A stretch of DNA of 64,000 nucleotides from Aurantibacillus circumpalustris (GTDB lineage: Bacteria; Bacteroidota; Bacteroidia; B-17B0; Aurantibacillaceae), in assembly GCF_029625215.1 (NCBI RefSeq), contig NZ_CP121197.1:620001-684000 (forward strand), read 5' to 3'. The position numbers and the translations under genes are program-made. Below the pieces are notes generated by a model. It was not told where the DNA came from. It did no database searches and saw only the letters and a program-made list of their open reading frames with translations. This document shows, one piece after another, positions 32,625 through 38,375 of the stretch (the stretch's first letter is position 1; each line of letters starts with the position of its first letter).

Positions 32625-34781
32625 TTAGTTGCTGATCACAATTTTTCGGGTAAATGTATTTAGGCCATTACTTAGTTTTACAAAGTATATTCCACTTTTC
32701 ACATTTTTTAAATTCACTGTTTTAACGTCTTTATTTTCGTCGTCTCTTATTTCTTCCATCTGTACCAATTCGCCAACGAGGTTGTAAACCAGAAGAGACA
32801 ATCCTTTTAAATTTTTGGGCAGAGTAATACTAAACTCTCCGTTTGATGGATTAGGGAATACCTTATATGATAAATTTTCAATAACAGTATTTAAAATACC
32901 TGTGCTCATCTCAGGTTGCATCACATTAATCTGTATAATTTCAAATGGATTATCATTTGACTTATTTAAATTATTTGCAAAACAAGTGTAAGATGTGGCT
33001 CCACAAGAAACTGTTACAGATAAGCAAATGGAATAGTTTGCCGCCACAGAATATAAGTGTGAAGCGTAGAGTGAGTTTGAAGTTGTTCCATCGCCCCAAT
33101 ACCAAATAGCTGCTGTAACGTTGTATGGGTATTCTGGTATTGCGATATAATTTTGAGAAGCTGAAAATGTAGGAACCACAATAAAATTAGGATTTGCAAT
33201 ACATGAAATTCCGGTAACATTTATTGCTTGCGTGAGACTATCAAAACAAGCCAAAAATGTAGCATCTTGCAATTTCAAAGTAACCAAATAAGCACCTGCG
33301 TTAACGTAGGTATGAGTTGGTGAACTCGCCAAAGAATAAATTCCATCACCAAAGTTCCAGTAATAATTCGAATTGCTATTTGTTGTCGAAGAACTTCCAC
33401 TAAACTGCACAACGCCGTTTGTAAGTACGGTATGCGTAAAATTTGAAACAAGATTACAGCCACTTACCACAACTGTTTTTGTAACAGAGGAATTACATGT
33501 AGAGCTATTGCTCGCATTTAATGATACAATATAAGAACCACTGCTGGAGTATGAATGGGCACTATTAAGTCCAGTACTTGTATTACCGTCACCAAGGTTC
33601 CATAAATAGTTTGTTCCTGTCAATGTTCCAGTAGAAGTATTTGTAAAACTAATCGTATTGCCGATAGTTTGTATATAAGAATAATTAGCATTAAGCGAGC
33701 AAGCGTTTATGTATACAACAGCACTATCCGAACAAAATGGATTAGAAGATGAAATATAAAGCTTAATAAAATAATTACCACTCGAGTAGTTTTGTGGTGG
33801 TGGAGTTATACCTGCCAGGCCTGAAGCACTATATGTTGGCGCGCCATTACCAAACTTCCAAATGTAAAGTGTTAAACTCGATGTGCCGGTAGAAGTACTT
33901 GTAAAACTATAATTGCCTGCTGTGCCAGCTTGAAAAGAAAAACTAGCAACGCAAGGCGGACCTGTAATATTACTAATATTTATAGTTTGGGTAAATGTGT
34001 TTGCACTGCAACTAGAATTTGCTGTTAATGTTACCGTATAACTACCATTACTGGTATAGGTTATTGAAGGAGACACACTGGTGCTTGTAACGCTATTTCC
34101 AAAATTCCAAAAATAAGTTGTATTACTTGTCGTGTTAACCGACGTGTTACTAAACATAACCAATCCATTTGCCATGCTACTGTATGTATAACCTGCAAAA
34201 ACTAATGGGATTACATTTGGCGTCACACTAGCACTATCACTACACCCTGAAGCGTTAGCTCCAATTACGGAATAAGTGGTGCTTACAGAAGGAGAAACAA
34301 TTATTTGATTACCCGTATTGCTATTACTCCAGGTATACGATTGAGCCCCCGAAGCGCTTAACGTTGTTGTAGAGCCTGCACATAAAGTTGGGCTACTCGA
34401 AATGGTTAAAATAGGCGAACAAAAAACAGGTATTATTAAAGAATTACCGGCAACTAGAGTAGACCCATTCATGGCGGAACAATAAAAAGTATAACTTCCA
34501 CAACAAGGATAAGATACTGTAATAACTGAACCATTAGAAACACTATTAGAAAAAGTTGGTGTGCATGAAGATCCTGCTATAGCCCAAGTATAATTGGTAA
34601 CGGCAGTTGTGGGAGTTACTGTTACAAAAGCAGTTCCCGGGCTAGATGGTCCAGAAAAACATTGAGAACTGGGCGTAACATTAAATGCGAATGTTTGAGC
34701 CCAAAGCTTACTAGAAAAAACACTAAATGCTACAAAGACAAATGAAAAAATAATTTTATGGCTACGAACAAAAAGACTCAT
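32625..34781 (-). CDS. PKD-repeat surface protein with T9SS sorting domain
   Basis: 718 residues. A signal peptide ends near SKLWAQ. The body is Ser/Thr/Asn-rich and holds about five PKD-like modules recognised by W.FG(D/N)G...SP.H.Y...G.Y.V.L (for example WNFGDGIYSLASSPTHTY). It also holds an early Ig-like module with the Cys-rich SPTLCAGSTTTLSASG motif. The C-terminal 80 residues are a type IX sorting domain (FPNPSNGEFSITLPKN, VKSGIYFVKLSNG). It is the last gene of a four-gene minus-strand operon. It is probably an adhesive or structural surface protein, and the ligand is unknown. Confidence 0.87.
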   Translation of the reverse strand: MSLFVRSHKIIFSFVFVAFSVFSSKLWAQTFAFNVTPSSQCFSGPSSPGTAFVTVTPTTAVTNYTWAIAGSSCTPTFSNSVSNGSVITVSYPCCGSYTFYCSAMNGSTLVAGNSLIIPVFCSPILTISSSPTLCAGSTTTLSASGAQSYTWSNSNTGNQIIVSPSVSTTYSVIGANASGCSDSASVTPNVIPLVFAGYTYSSMANGLVMFSNTSVNTTSNTTYFWNFGNSVTSTSVSPSITYTSNGSYTVTLTANSSCSANTFTQTINISNITGPPCVASFSFQAGTAGNYSFTSTSTGTSSLTLYIWKFGNGAPTYSASGLAGITPPPQNYSSGNYFIKLYISSSNPFCSDSAVVYINACSLNANYSYIQTIGNTISFTNTSTGTLTGTNYLWNLGDGNTSTGLNSAHSYSSSGSYIVSLNASNSSTCNSSVTKTVVVSGCNLVSNFTHTVLTNGVVQFSGSSSTTNSNSNYYWNFGDGIYSLASSPTHTYVNAGAYLVTLKLQDATFLACFDSLTQAINVTGISCIANPNFIVVPTFSASQNYIAIPEYPYNVTAAIWYWGDGTTSNSLYASHLYSVAANYSICLSVTVSCGATSYTCFANNLNKSNDNPFEIIQINVMQPEMSTGILNTVIENLSYKVFPNPSNGEFSITLPKNLKGLSLLVYNLVGELVQMEEIRDDENKDVKTVNLKNVKSGIYFVKLSNGLNTFTRKIVISN

Positions 34782-34807
34782 TTTAACTTTTTAATTAAAT
34801 AGTACTA

Positions 34808-35917
34808 TTAATAAGCCACAGAAATAACAACTTCGGCATCGTTTATTGCAATTGCTTTTATTCCACTGTATAAAATGCAACTAAACTTTGCGGTTATTTT
34901 TTTTGTCGTTTGACTATTTTCATTCCTTTCATTTTCACTTACCGAATATATTTGAAAATAACTTTGAGACGGCTGTAAAGGTGTGTTAGAAGTATAGACC
35001 GTACCATTGTCGTCCGTCCAACTAATTAATACCTGCGACAAAGGTGGTTCAGGAGCTATTTTCTTGACAGGAGTAACAGTGTAATTAGCTGCGCTCGATG
35101 ACACGTCATTTATTGTTTTTGCATTATAAGCCGCATATGCAGTGTCACCATAAAAATCTACAACTCTCAAATTAACAGCATAAGCCCCTTGATATGTATA
35201 ACTAATATTTTCGCTATTTAATGTTGAAATCTGTCCATTACCAAAATTCCATAAATATTGGTAAGGGCTCCGCCCGCCAATAACATTAGAACTAAATTTC
35301 ATAGAATTCCCTAAATATTCTGAAGCCGATATTGTTGCGATTAAACCATTTGGATTTACGTTTTCGTAATTACAATTACTACTCTTGTAATTGTTATTAC
35401 TTGTTGTGGTTAAACAAACCCTATGTTTACCAAGAGTTTTATAAAAATGTATTGGGTTTTGACTAACGGAATTAGTACCGTCTCCAAAATCCCAGTCCCA
35501 AGTAGATGTGTTATCGTTTGAACCAAAAAATTGCAATGAATAAGTTGGAGCTGGACTTCCTGCGAGTATCGGATATTGTCCTTTATGTAAAGCGGAATCA
35601 ATATTTGAAGAAGGATTAGAAAGAGACACTTGATAATCTTTAATTTCAATTTTAAGACTATTGGCACAGTTTGAACAGTCTTTTTGTTTTAGATCTGCAA
35701 CAAATGTCTTTACGAAATTAGAATCAACTTCATAGGATGAATACATATAATAACCATCAATACCAGCTTGGAGCTCAAGAGCTTGATTGTTAATTGTGAG
35801 TTTTGAGTAAAAAACTGGGCTGTTCTCCGTAACCTGTGGTTTGGGATATTCTTTTTTATTGCAGGACAACAAGCCCACAAACAGAAAAAACACACATAAA
35901 AATTTAAGTACCTTCAT
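34808..35917 (-). CDS. PKD-domain lipoprotein
   Basis: 369 residues. The lipoprotein signal is MKVLKFLCVFFLFVGLLSCNKKEY, with lipid Cys 19. Two PKD modules lie at about residues 140-175 (WDWDFGDGTNSVSQNP) and 215-255 (YLWNFGNGQISTLNSE), followed by a beta-rich C-terminal domain with no known name. It lies 26 bases before the T9SS PKD gene and 3 bases after the barrel gene. This tight spacing suggests these proteins act together at the outer membrane. It has no sorting domain, so it may be held by its lipid. Confidence 0.85.
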   Translation of the reverse strand: MKVLKFLCVFFLFVGLLSCNKKEYPKPQVTENSPVFYSKLTINNQALELQAGIDGYYMYSSYEVDSNFVKTFVADLKQKDCSNCANSLKIEIKDYQVSLSNPSSNIDSALHKGQYPILAGSPAPTYSLQFFGSNDNTSTWDWDFGDGTNSVSQNPIHFYKTLGKHRVCLTTTSNNNYKSSNCNYENVNPNGLIATISASEYLGNSMKFSSNVIGGRSPYQYLWNFGNGQISTLNSENISYTYQGAYAVNLRVVDFYGDTAYAAYNAKTINDVSSSAANYTVTPVKKIAPEPPLSQVLISWTDDNGTVYTSNTPLQPSQSYFQIYSVSENERNENSQTTKKITAKFSCILYSGIKAIAINDAEVVISVAY

Positions 35918-35920
35918 TCT

Positions 35921-37588
35921 TTATCTTTTTAGAAAATTATAAACAAGAGTTAGTTTCATTCCATTATTTCTTTCAAACACATTTGACTTAAAAAATGCAT
36001 TGTCTTTGATATCTGTTAAACCATAAAATAGTTCTATGTTAAGAGAAAGATTAGGGTAAAATCTCCTTTTATAAAAAAGAGATACTTGTGTGTCATACTG
36101 CTTAAACCCTTCAGTGTATCCACTCGTTTCGCTGAGTGTTTGATTATATTTTGAATTTAGTTTTTCAGTATAATTTTCAACCTCACTTTCCACATTTAAA
36201 AGATAAGCAACATTAAAGCCTAAACCAATCGTATTTAGAGGTGTAAGATGGTAGTTAAATCTTAATGGTGCGATGAGGTAGTGAATTTTTACTGGCGTAA
36301 AAACCGTCACATCACTCTGCTCCCCAAATCCCAAATGAGTGACTCTGGAGGTATAATTACTATAACTTAAATTGCCCACTGACGAATAATGAAGCCCGAA
36401 AGTTAAGGACATTTTGGACGAAAAATTATTAAAATAGTTAATGCCAACCACTGGATTAAAACCATTTGCATCACGCGTTCCGCCATTTTGCCATCCAAAC
36501 AAATAACTCGCCCCTGCTTCAACCGAAAATAAAACCGGATACTCTTTTGGCTTACCAAGCTGTCCTTGATCTGTATCTGGCGGAATATCTGAAATCAAAT
36601 CCGTGTTACCTATTATGACCGCTTTTGCAACCTCAACCTTAGCACTATCCTTTATGTCCATTTTGCCAGCGTCATTACTACTCGCTTCCATAATTTCATC
36701 ACTTGCAATTCCTTCTTGCTTAGATGAAGTTTTATTTGCAAGTAACGAGTTGTCGTTGACGGAATTTTGCTCTTGAGTTTTTACAGTTGGATCAATAATA
36801 TCAGGAATTACAGTTCCAGAATTGGTTGTATTTGCGGCAACGGGGATTTCAATCATCTCTTTAGCAACTATCTTTCCCTCAAAAATTTTAACCGGATTAG
36901 CGCTTTTTACAACAGTTTCAGTATTCTCTTTCGCAACACTTGTGTTTTCTGGATTTACTTTTTCAGCACCAATAATATAAGGCTTAACAACAACGTCATT
37001 CATTCGCGGGTCGCTTGTTTCACTTATACTTGCAACAGGTTGTGAAGCTGCTATCACTTTGGTGGCAAGGTCCACAGGTTTAATGCCGTTAACTTTACTA
37101 TCAAGTGTCGTGTTACGTTTTGTATCTTCAATTTGTTGTTTTGTTTCGCCAATCGGAGCAGGAGCAGATTGGTTTACTTGAGAAACTTCATTTTCTTTTA
37201 CAGGAATGGTTGATGTTTTGTTTACACGAAAAGCTTGCTCGGGTAGTTTTGAAGGTGTTATGGATTCTGTTGTAGCAATAACCACAGCAGCTGCCGGTGC
37301 AATGTGAGTTTGAATTTTTTTGGCAGTTGATGGCTCATTAATTTTACTGTTTGCTTTTGTAGCTAGTGTTTCCTTCGACGTTGTTAAAGTGTCGGTAAAT
37401 AAGTAAACGCCTGTTGAAATCGTTCCGAGCATTAAAACGCTACTAAGTAAGTATAAAAGCATTCTAGGTGGTTTTTTAGATGCGTCAATCATCTGCTGTG
37501 CTTTATCCCAGTTCGATTCATCAAATGCAAATTGCTTTGATGAAAGAAGTTCCTCTAGGGATTTTTTAAATCTTTCTTCGCTATTCAT
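35921..37588 (-). CDS. inner-membrane-anchored outer membrane beta-barrel, probable sigma partner
   Basis: 555 residues. Residues 1-42 are cytoplasmic (FKKSLEELLSSKQFAFDESN, DKAQQMIDASKKP). A membrane segment at about 43-64 (LLYLLSSVLMLGTISTGVYLF) is followed by a 280-residue low-complexity Thr/Lys/Val/Asn/Pro-rich stretch. From about 350 come beta strands ending in Phe-rich LVYNFLKR, typical of an outer membrane barrel of the PorT type. The protein could span both membranes. It overlaps the ECF sigma gene by eight bases, which suggests the cytoplasmic N-terminus acts as an anti-sigma. That function is inferred from position and topology. Confidence 0.8.
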   Translation of the reverse strand: MNSEERFKKSLEELLSSKQFAFDESNWDKAQQMIDASKKPPRMLLYLLSSVLMLGTISTGVYLFTDTLTTSKETLATKANSKINEPSTAKKIQTHIAPAAAVVIATTESITPSKLPEQAFRVNKTSTIPVKENEVSQVNQSAPAPIGETKQQIEDTKRNTTLDSKVNGIKPVDLATKVIAASQPVASISETSDPRMNDVVVKPYIIGAEKVNPENTSVAKENTETVVKSANPVKIFEGKIVAKEMIEIPVAANTTNSGTVIPDIIDPTVKTQEQNSVNDNSLLANKTSSKQEGIASDEIMEASSNDAGKMDIKDSAKVEVAKAVIIGNTDLISDIPPDTDQGQLGKPKEYPVLFSVEAGASYLFGWQNGGTRDANGFNPVVGINYFNNFSSKMSLTFGLHYSSVGNLSYSNYTSRVTHLGFGEQSDVTVFTPVKIHYLIAPLRFNYHLTPLNTIGLGFNVAYLLNVESEVENYTEKLNSKYNQTLSETSGYTEGFKQYDTQVSLFYKRRFYPNLSLNIELFYGLTDIKDNAFFKSNVFERNNGMKLTLVYNFLKR

Positions 37589-38147
37589 GTACCGTTATTT
37601 TTATTGGTAAATCAAATTTGGCTAACATTTCTTTTAATTTTTCCCTTGCCGAATTTAAGTGCCACTTCGATGTGCCTTCACTAATATTAAGCATCGTCGA
37701 AATTTCTTTATGTTTATACCCCTCGATATAATATAAGTTAAACACGTGTTGGCTGGCAGGTGGTAGTTTTGAAATAAAAGCGTAAATCTGATCAACGTTT
37801 ATTTTTGAGATCGCTTCGTTTATTTCTGAGTATGAATCAGACTCATGATATCCATCAATGTATTCTACATTTCCAGTATGGATTTTTTCCTTTTTATATT
37901 CATTTATCAGCGTATTAATCATCACCTTTCTAATCCAGGGTTTAAAGGGTATTTCTGGATTATACTTACCTAAATTATTTAAAATCTTAAGAAATCCTAT
38001 ATTTAATACCTCTTTGGCTCGATCAGGATTTCTTGTATACCTCACACAGATGCTCATTAAATAACTATAGACGGCTTTATAAAGGTCGTACTGAGCTTTG
38101 CGCTCACCTTTAATACAAGATTCTATCAGTTTTTGCTGAATATCCAT
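37581..38147 (-). CDS. ECF-family RNA polymerase sigma factor, first gene of the PKD operon
   Basis: 188 residues. Region 2 (YDLYKAVYSYLMSICVRYTRNPDRAKEVLNIGFLKILNNL) and the region 4 helix-turn-helix (YIEGYKHKEISTMLNISEGTSKWHLNSAREKL) are well formed. It starts with ATG at 38145-38147. Its 3' end overlaps the barrel gene, and all four genes read in the same direction. It would redirect RNA polymerase, probably to its own operon and other envelope genes. No TAnnTTTG element is seen upstream, so the promoter may be of an alternative type. Confidence 0.92.
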   Translation of the reverse strand: MDIQQKLIESCIKGERKAQYDLYKAVYSYLMSICVRYTRNPDRAKEVLNIGFLKILNNLGKYNPEIPFKPWIRKVMINTLINEYKKEKIHTGNVEYIDGYHESDSYSEINEAISKINVDQIYAFISKLPPASQHVFNLYYIEGYKHKEISTMLNISEGTSKWHLNSAREKLKEMLAKFDLPIKITVHE

Positions 38148-38375
38148 TAAATAACTAGGTCTACTATACCATTACACGCTCAGCGCAGTAATGGTTGGGT
38201 TAAAGTAAATTTACCAAGAAAAGACGGAAAATGTCCTTTCATCCCCAAAATAATCTAACATAACTGAGTTTTTGAATTAGACCTGCTATCTAAATACCTT
38301 TACAAGACCATGGGGCTTAAGGTTGGGCTAGGTCAAAAATTTGTGTTTTTTGCGCGATTTAGAGTTAAAAATCGA

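Follow-up and report, generated by a model that had tools for sequence, protein, structure and literature searches.

Operon layout and the Dma-type barrel protein

We analysed a window of 64,000 nucleotides from Aurantibacillus circumpalustris (contig NZ_CP121197.1, positions 620,001 to 684,000) and describe here an operon of four genes, all on the minus strand, that encodes a sigma factor, a predicted barrel protein and two PKD proteins. The first gene (38147-37581, 188 residues) encodes an extracytoplasmic function (ECF) sigma factor with Pfam matches to Sigma70_r4_2 (E 4e-13) and Sigma70_r2. It overlaps by 8 bases the second gene (37588-35921), whose 555-residue product is a barrel protein of the Dma (dual membrane-spanning anti-sigma) type and matched no Pfam family at E up to 1. 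After a gap of 3 bases follows the gene of a 369-residue PKD lipoprotein (34808..35917), and after a further 26 bases that of a 718-residue PKD protein (34781-32625) of the type IX secretion system (T9SS); PKD_4 was matched in both of these, and Por_Secre_tail in the last (E 3e-14). No terminator-like site was found on the minus strand inside the operon. The four-gene arrangement put forward in the original prediction, which had been made from the DNA letters, is confirmed by the open reading frames (ORFs) and Pfam. Judged from sequence, the cluster probably switches on proteins that are displayed on the bacterial surface.

The AlphaFold model of the barrel protein (gene 2), built from 41 relatives, has a mean predicted local distance difference test (pLDDT) score of 66, which is low since much of the chain is disordered. 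Helices are modelled at residues 3-17, 24-37 and 43-65. Residues 1-42 (37463..37588), which include the conserved Trp27, are the presumed cytoplasmic sigma-binding segment according to the model, N-terminal alignments and hhalign, and residues 43-65 (37394..37462) are a predicted inner-membrane helix according to the model and the hydrophobicity of the relatives. A low-confidence coil then runs from about residue 70 to 345, mostly with pLDDT under 50, and is predicted to be a disordered periplasmic tether (36554..37381). The chain ends in a block of beta structure at residues 352-554 (35927..36535), with pLDDT mostly 90-98, that is predicted to form a beta-barrel. Foldseek placed it closest, among solved structures, to the OmpA, Ail, OmpX and NspA barrels (target-normalised template modelling score 0.5-0.6), and OMP_b-brl_2 was matched by 14 of the 41 relatives (E up to 1). 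One hydrophobic segment is present in 39 relatives, none in one and two in another. For the 40 with an N-terminal helix, this helix begins in every case at a residue number of at least 43, and the tether spans 145-290 residues (median 227).

The first 90 residues of the protein align with Dma-type N-termini at an hhalign probability of 97 (E 1e-10). This comparison set 15 N-termini of the window's group against 13 of the Dma type, four of them from Bacteroides-type loci and the remainder from Dma-like neighbours of related sigma factors; a Trp is invariant within each set. A control with FecR-type sequences, numbering only four, gave a probability of 0.4. Loci of the dma2 type were located via DUF4943, the family of the gene adjoining dma2. 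Two of them (L164 and L165), probably from Bacteroides genomes, encode in order a sigma factor, a Dma-type protein of 351-356 residues, a DUF4943 protein, a protein of 216-224 residues and a nitronate monooxygenase-like protein (by eye), which is the order described for BT_1559 to BT_1555. Pfam matched the DUF4943 domain for L164, and at both loci the protein starts like a lipoprotein (lipobox by eye).

With a homologous N-terminal segment, one predicted transmembrane helix, a disordered tether, a predicted barrel and an adjacent sigma factor of the Das group, the gene 2 protein fits the Dma family of Bacteroides and, on its model, probably extends from inside the cell as far as the outer membrane. 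The proposal of a single polypeptide with a cytoplasmic segment, one membrane helix, a disordered tether and an outer-membrane-type barrel is thus borne out by the model, Foldseek and the N-terminal homology. The layout is not a new idea: Dma proteins have been described as combining an anti-sigma segment with a membrane helix, a disordered tether and a barrel at the C-terminus, encoded next to an ECF21 sigma factor (PMC13088901), and a Phocaeicola sigma/anti-sigma pair built in this way was published in 2022 (PMC9308784). We therefore rejected the double-membrane sensor as a novelty.

The anti-sigma N-terminal Trp motif occurs in tandem at one related locus (L049:9125-10681), as if the sigma-binding segment were duplicated. 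Upstream of the window's operon lies cinA; the gene on its other side runs convergently and encodes a DNA polymerase III delta-subunit domain.

The PKD lipoprotein and the sigma factor tree

The barrel profile matched 53 of 87 genomes of the family Aurantibacillaceae. We read 41 family cassettes, selected for lipoprotein or barrel matches, and in all of them sigma factor, barrel and lipoprotein genes follow in this order on the same strand, spaced by -79 to +51 bases. The middle gene matches a four-row barrel profile in 40 (the exception is L029), and a gene with a T9SS sorting tail comes directly next in 21. Three loci, L046-L048 (two N-terminal-only matches and one filler), lie outside these 41 and outside the 120-locus motif counts given below. 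Four of the cassettes come from the window's own genome, the window's included, with the T9SS PKD gene next in three; because of the three further copies, the layout is beyond chance.

When named Bacteroidota genomes were scanned with the sigma factor as query, 53 of the best 80 loci carried the full triad, 9 had a partial match to the lipoprotein profile and 7 had none; the others reached a contig end (8), lacked a sigma ORF (2) or had no recognised barrel (1). Triads among these 80 include Saprospiraceae, Crocinitomicaceae and Flavobacteriales metagenome-assembled genomes, and Crocinitomix catalasitica (L120) is among the loci, with a weak lipoprotein match of 36 bits. A restriction of the lipoprotein to Aurantibacillaceae, considered while a strict search of the phylum gave only PKD-region matches outside the family, was dropped when the named scan found these triads. 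Synteny is strongly conserved in both samples, so that the refuting condition set by the original prediction, a lack of such conservation, does not hold, and the PKD lipoprotein appears to be a recurrent and apparently new third component.

Lipidation of the window's lipoprotein is expected at Cys19 from the alignment, where this Cys is invariant (41/41). In Capnocytophaga, lipoproteins of the surface have K-(D/E)2 behind the Cys, and in Bacteroides fragilis they have an acidic run there (PMC5080379). Position +3 is Lys in 40 of the 41 lipoproteins, and none has two acidic residues in positions +2 to +6; because the usual acidic surface-export signal is absent from all 41, the lipoprotein probably faces the periplasm. 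The Capnocytophaga MucG signal, KKEVEEE, also starts with two lysines (PMC5080379), so a divergent surface signal is conceivable. The lipoprotein model (mean pLDDT 90) places PKD-like domains between conserved N- and C-terminal beta parts; fold matches covered the PKD part, with none for the two terminal parts, which were barely tested. DUF4943 was absent from the window's lipoprotein in a Pfam search at E up to 1, which returned PKD and two unrelated weak matches.

The sigma factors were placed in a tree of 81 sequences, where a 99/94 branch splits 59 rows, including all Dma-linked sigma factors, from 22 other ECF sigma factors. The window's sigma factor groups with das2-type sigma factors, away from these 22. 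Two rows labelled as 'other' (L192 and L204) fall on the Dma side, and their next genes weakly match the barrel-protein profile (10 and 26 bits). Seventeen rows were labelled Dma-like; in at least three of these (L179, L181, L183) the next gene encodes a short protein (239-301 residues) on which no barrel was seen. For the second tree, the 24 rows labelled as other ECFs were cut to 7, and eight loci without a recognised lipoprotein were added. All lipoprotein-bearing sigma factors fell together on a 99/93 branch comprising 51 rows. The lipoprotein as marker of a pure sigma clade, suggested by the first tree, was dropped after the second with these eight exceptions inside the branch; it is probably ancestral there, with losses or divergence.

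The window's genome also has a fifth sigma/Dma-like pair (L196:6598-8455, C1 about 2,344,500), with a second protein of 460 residues, no lipoprotein gene behind it and no motif copy found. Another Dma-like branch (L168:4466-8621, L169:4375-8222, L176:2728-6885) has its own conserved neighbours downstream: a lipoprotein-like protein, a YceI-like protein (by eye) of about 180-190 residues and a protein of about 280-297 residues.

A promoter-like motif before sigma factor and T9SS genes

Across 104 distinct sigma upstream regions (the 41 cassettes plus the named scan), the dyad CCAAC-N17-CGTAT was present in 29, whereas in one shuffle no dyad occurred in more than 4. After refinement, the matrix is tacCCAACctTT-N11-ntcGTatta, and 77 of the 104 regions score above the 99th percentile (13.2) of Markov-shuffled regions. 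Only two sites in the whole window score at least 16, and both are in the gap before the sigma gene: a proximal copy (38169..38201, minus strand, score 23.3), about 22 bases before the start codon, and a distal copy (38297..38329, minus strand, score 20.6). ECF genes that fall outside the Dma branch had upstream scores of 4.2 at best; the best score at other Dma-like loci was 16.0 (L173), and the four Bacteroides-type loci gave no positive score. The placement of the motif before sigma operons points to autoregulation, which is usual for ECF operons. The motif appears to be new, and we infer that it is the promoter of the Dma-linked sigma factor. The two copies in the window stand in tandem, 128 bases apart and with similar flanks; the related locus L011 also has two core copies upstream of its sigma gene.

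With the matrix trained on sigma upstream regions alone, 120 loci (1.63 Mb) yielded 158 sites scoring at least 17 (132 distinct sequences, some loci being the same contig twice), compared with 2 in one block shuffle. The motif precedes 67 of 98 sigma genes, which are the training set, and 28 of 74 sorting-tail genes, as defined by home-made sorting-tail profiles, compared with 12 of 699 other genes (odds ratio 35, p 4e-22); it precedes none of 81 lipoprotein genes and none of 88 barrel genes at these loci. These counts omit ORFs shorter than 100 residues, those less than 250 bases from an end of the locus and those whose last 60 residues are shared. The L008 cassette (19410-14143), for example, has a T9SS gene with a motif site of its own. 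The -10 base before GT, C or T, is the same for the sigma operon and the T9SS gene in 19 of 19 same-locus pairs, counted by eye (Fisher 1e-5; 2e-4 with orthologues thinned), as expected if one sigma factor reads both genes.

A strict form of the motif matched 50 times in the 87 family genomes, compared with 3 for the reversed pattern, and the matches fell in 23 of 53 genomes with a barrel match against 3 of 34 without (p 6e-4). From these 50 we chose 20 sites away from known triads, among which L271/L282, L280/L281 and L269/L279 are orthologues. Eleven lead into T9SS-tail proteins, including PKD and SprB-repeat proteins, three lie inside ORFs and six stand before other genes. The eleven assignments were made on T9SS-like tails, with Pfam or NCBIfam confirmation coming afterwards; of the nine other sites three were scanned (L266, L269, L270), and their proteins gave no T9SS match. 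For comparison, the background of T9SS tails, taken with the home-made profiles from non-random stretches of the window's genome, is 4 of 77 ORFs. Of 20 stretches taken from loose-pattern matches in that genome, two (L216 and L226) have their site ahead of a gene start. The same genome encodes a 552-residue T9SS protein, distant from the cassettes, with a confirmed tail and a motif site 53 bases upstream. Since the motif stands before T9SS genes, the T9SS PKD proteins are most likely outputs of the sigma factor rather than sensed partners; feedback from T9SS proteins onto the switch is possible.

Some further motif sites were recorded. Triads without a T9SS gene (L065:10119-10804, also L066, L067 and L037) have the motif again behind the lipoprotein gene, where it precedes the gene of a conserved membrane protein; this protein has about 174-207 residues and matched no Pfam family (L065 scanned). 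In two genomes, a conserved gene for a 57-residue protein (L269:568-741 and L279:613-786) lies 22-31 bases past a strict motif, again with no Pfam family (L269 scanned). The L216 site (1281-1313; C1 about 935,780), with a score of 22.6, lies 32 bases before a housekeeping sigma gene (by eye) and may be due to chance.

A candidate envelope switch and its relation to known systems

Taking the computed architecture, Dma N-terminal homology, synteny, shared motif and motif placement together, we put at about 0.7 the probability that the cluster encodes a three-component Dma-type envelope switch controlling T9SS surface proteins. Sigma binding, the span of two membranes, what the lipoprotein does, which signal acts and how the sigma factor is released are inferred. 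Residues 1-42 of the Dma protein would hold the ECF sigma factor at the inner membrane, the OmpA/OmpX-like barrel would anchor the protein in the outer membrane, and the disordered tether would join both ends. The PKD lipoprotein, probably located in the outer membrane and facing the periplasm, would be produced together with the Dma protein and would probably govern which state the barrel or tether is in. When the outer membrane or the surface layer is disturbed, the Dma protein would let the sigma factor go, and the freed sigma factor would transcribe its own operon, in a positive feedback, together with genes for T9SS-exported proteins, here gene 4. Direct control of the sigma factor by the gene 2 protein, as first proposed, is probable. 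The architecture and synteny of that earlier interpretation have held, whereas the novelty of its layout has not, and the motif evidence does not support its T9SS PKD protein as a sensed partner.

Several observations weigh against this switch. The highest motif score in shuffled regions was 21.2, and no motif site was found at L167 and L172, where the third gene is lipoprotein-like. Sites are also lacking before 46 of the 74 nearby T9SS genes. The T9SS gene of the window has no motif copy of its own and is presumably read through from the operon promoters. The strict family-wide pattern does not occur in the window's genome, and counts for looser patterns stay close to background there (2 matches against 4 for controls, and 33 against 17), so its own regulon is only partly visible. 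Finally, the eight loci without a recognised lipoprotein lie inside the triad branch of the second tree, and the lipoprotein is therefore not indispensable to every member.

Other explanations share parts of the evidence. The lipoprotein and the T9SS PKD protein could be inputs, that is, surface partners sensed by the barrel and not products of the switch. They are co-encoded with it, and in Porphyromonas gingivalis PorXY-SigP receives a surface signal by way of PorA, a protein with a T9SS domain (PMC7712824), so that such a protein is able to influence a sigma pathway. However, T9SS genes bear the sigma-type motif independently, also at a distance from the operon, and a T9SS gene is directly next in only 21 of 41 cassettes while the lipoprotein is present in 41 of 41, and we regard this explanation as unlikely. 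We are similarly sceptical of the view that some other sigma factor, for example one resembling that of the Flavobacterium psychrophilum SM6 promoters, uses the motif as a general ECF promoter, with the Dma-linked sigma gene only one of its targets. ECF promoters typically have CGT in the -10 box, and the SM6 promoters drive genes for T9SS components (PMC9723704), but the concordant C or T before GT in all 19 same-locus pairs is as expected for one cognate sigma factor, strict matches concentrate in genomes with a barrel match, and ECF genes outside the Dma branch score no higher than 4.2.

Release of the sigma factor might instead proceed by regulated proteolysis, with a periplasmic protease cutting the tether, an intramembrane protease freeing the sigma factor, and the barrel and lipoprotein shielding the cutting site. 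The predicted long, disordered tether would be an easy substrate, and regulated proteolysis is the common textbook route for single-helix anti-sigma factors. The data fit a conformational release just as well, and we consider proteolysis a serious possibility, somewhat short of even odds. That the N-terminal helix is a signal peptide, and that gene 2 codes for a common outer-membrane protein standing beside the sigma factor without a function there, is highly improbable. The barrel does resemble common barrel domains, as the OMP_b-brl_2 matches indicate, but in the 40 relatives the helix lies behind a Dma-homologous segment with a conserved Trp, and the position beside the sigma gene is nearly invariant. 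A bolder form of the envelope switch is a closed loop, in which a Dma anti-sigma factor across both membranes, gated by a dedicated lipoprotein on the periplasmic side, monitors the surface layer and drives a T9SS coat. The four paralogous copies in the window's genome would differ in their -10 boxes and each control secreted proteins of their own, and the coat, or the lipoprotein reporting on it, would reclose the switch; we offer this tentatively, as speculation.

What appears to be new here is the recurrent PKD lipoprotein, the promoter-like motif and the presence of this motif before T9SS cargo genes. The lipoprotein triad, the motif and Dma control of T9SS cargo were not found described in the literature searched, which is weak evidence of absence as most subscription journals and the founding Dma paper lay outside the search. 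Dma regulators are recent and their trigger is left unsettled in the literature covered; this variant offers a recurrent third partner as a candidate sensor input, a written-out motif and a predicted T9SS-secreted output. If true, the switch would tie Dma signalling to the remodelling of the Bacteroidota protein coat, and the motif could serve as a reporter sequence in a direct search for the inducing signal.

The proposed crossing of a signal over both membranes to an ECF sigma factor resembles FecIRA-type cell-surface signalling, where receptor and anti-sigma factor are separate proteins. Here, a single polypeptide would serve, with no match to a FecR-type profile (probability 0.4, four sequences). 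Much closer in design are Dma1/Dma2-Das1/Das2 of Bacteroides thetaiotaomicron, with the same segment, helix, tether, barrel and adjacent ECF sigma factor and a self-induced operon (PMC13088901). The third gene of the dma2-type operon (L164, L165) is likewise lipoprotein-like (judged by eye), but it is a DUF4943 protein there and an unrelated PKD lipoprotein here; nor was a copy of our motif present at the four Bacteroides-type loci examined. Outputs differ as well, those reported for B. thetaiotaomicron being vesicle formation, NigD1 and polysaccharide-use loci (PMC13088901) and predicted T9SS proteins here.

Phocaeicola vulgatus M0N98_03760/03761 also comprises a sigma gene followed by that of a large anti-sigma factor, for which a span across the periplasm and an outer-membrane barrel are predicted; the pair is induced by the toxin BcpT, with envelope stress as the likely signal (PMC9308784). 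The available text of that paper mentions neither a PKD lipoprotein nor T9SS targets. EcfO of B. fragilis and its partner are a similar sigma/anti-sigma pair, linked there to oxidative stress, for which the available parts of the papers that refer to it (PMC9308784, PMC13088901) mention no third component. A tie between an ECF sigma factor and type IX secretion is shared with PorXY-SigP of P. gingivalis (PMC7712824) and the SM6 promoters of F. psychrophilum (PMC9723704); those systems involve a two-component system and secretion machinery genes, whereas the operon described here would couple a Dma-type anti-sigma factor to the secreted cargo.

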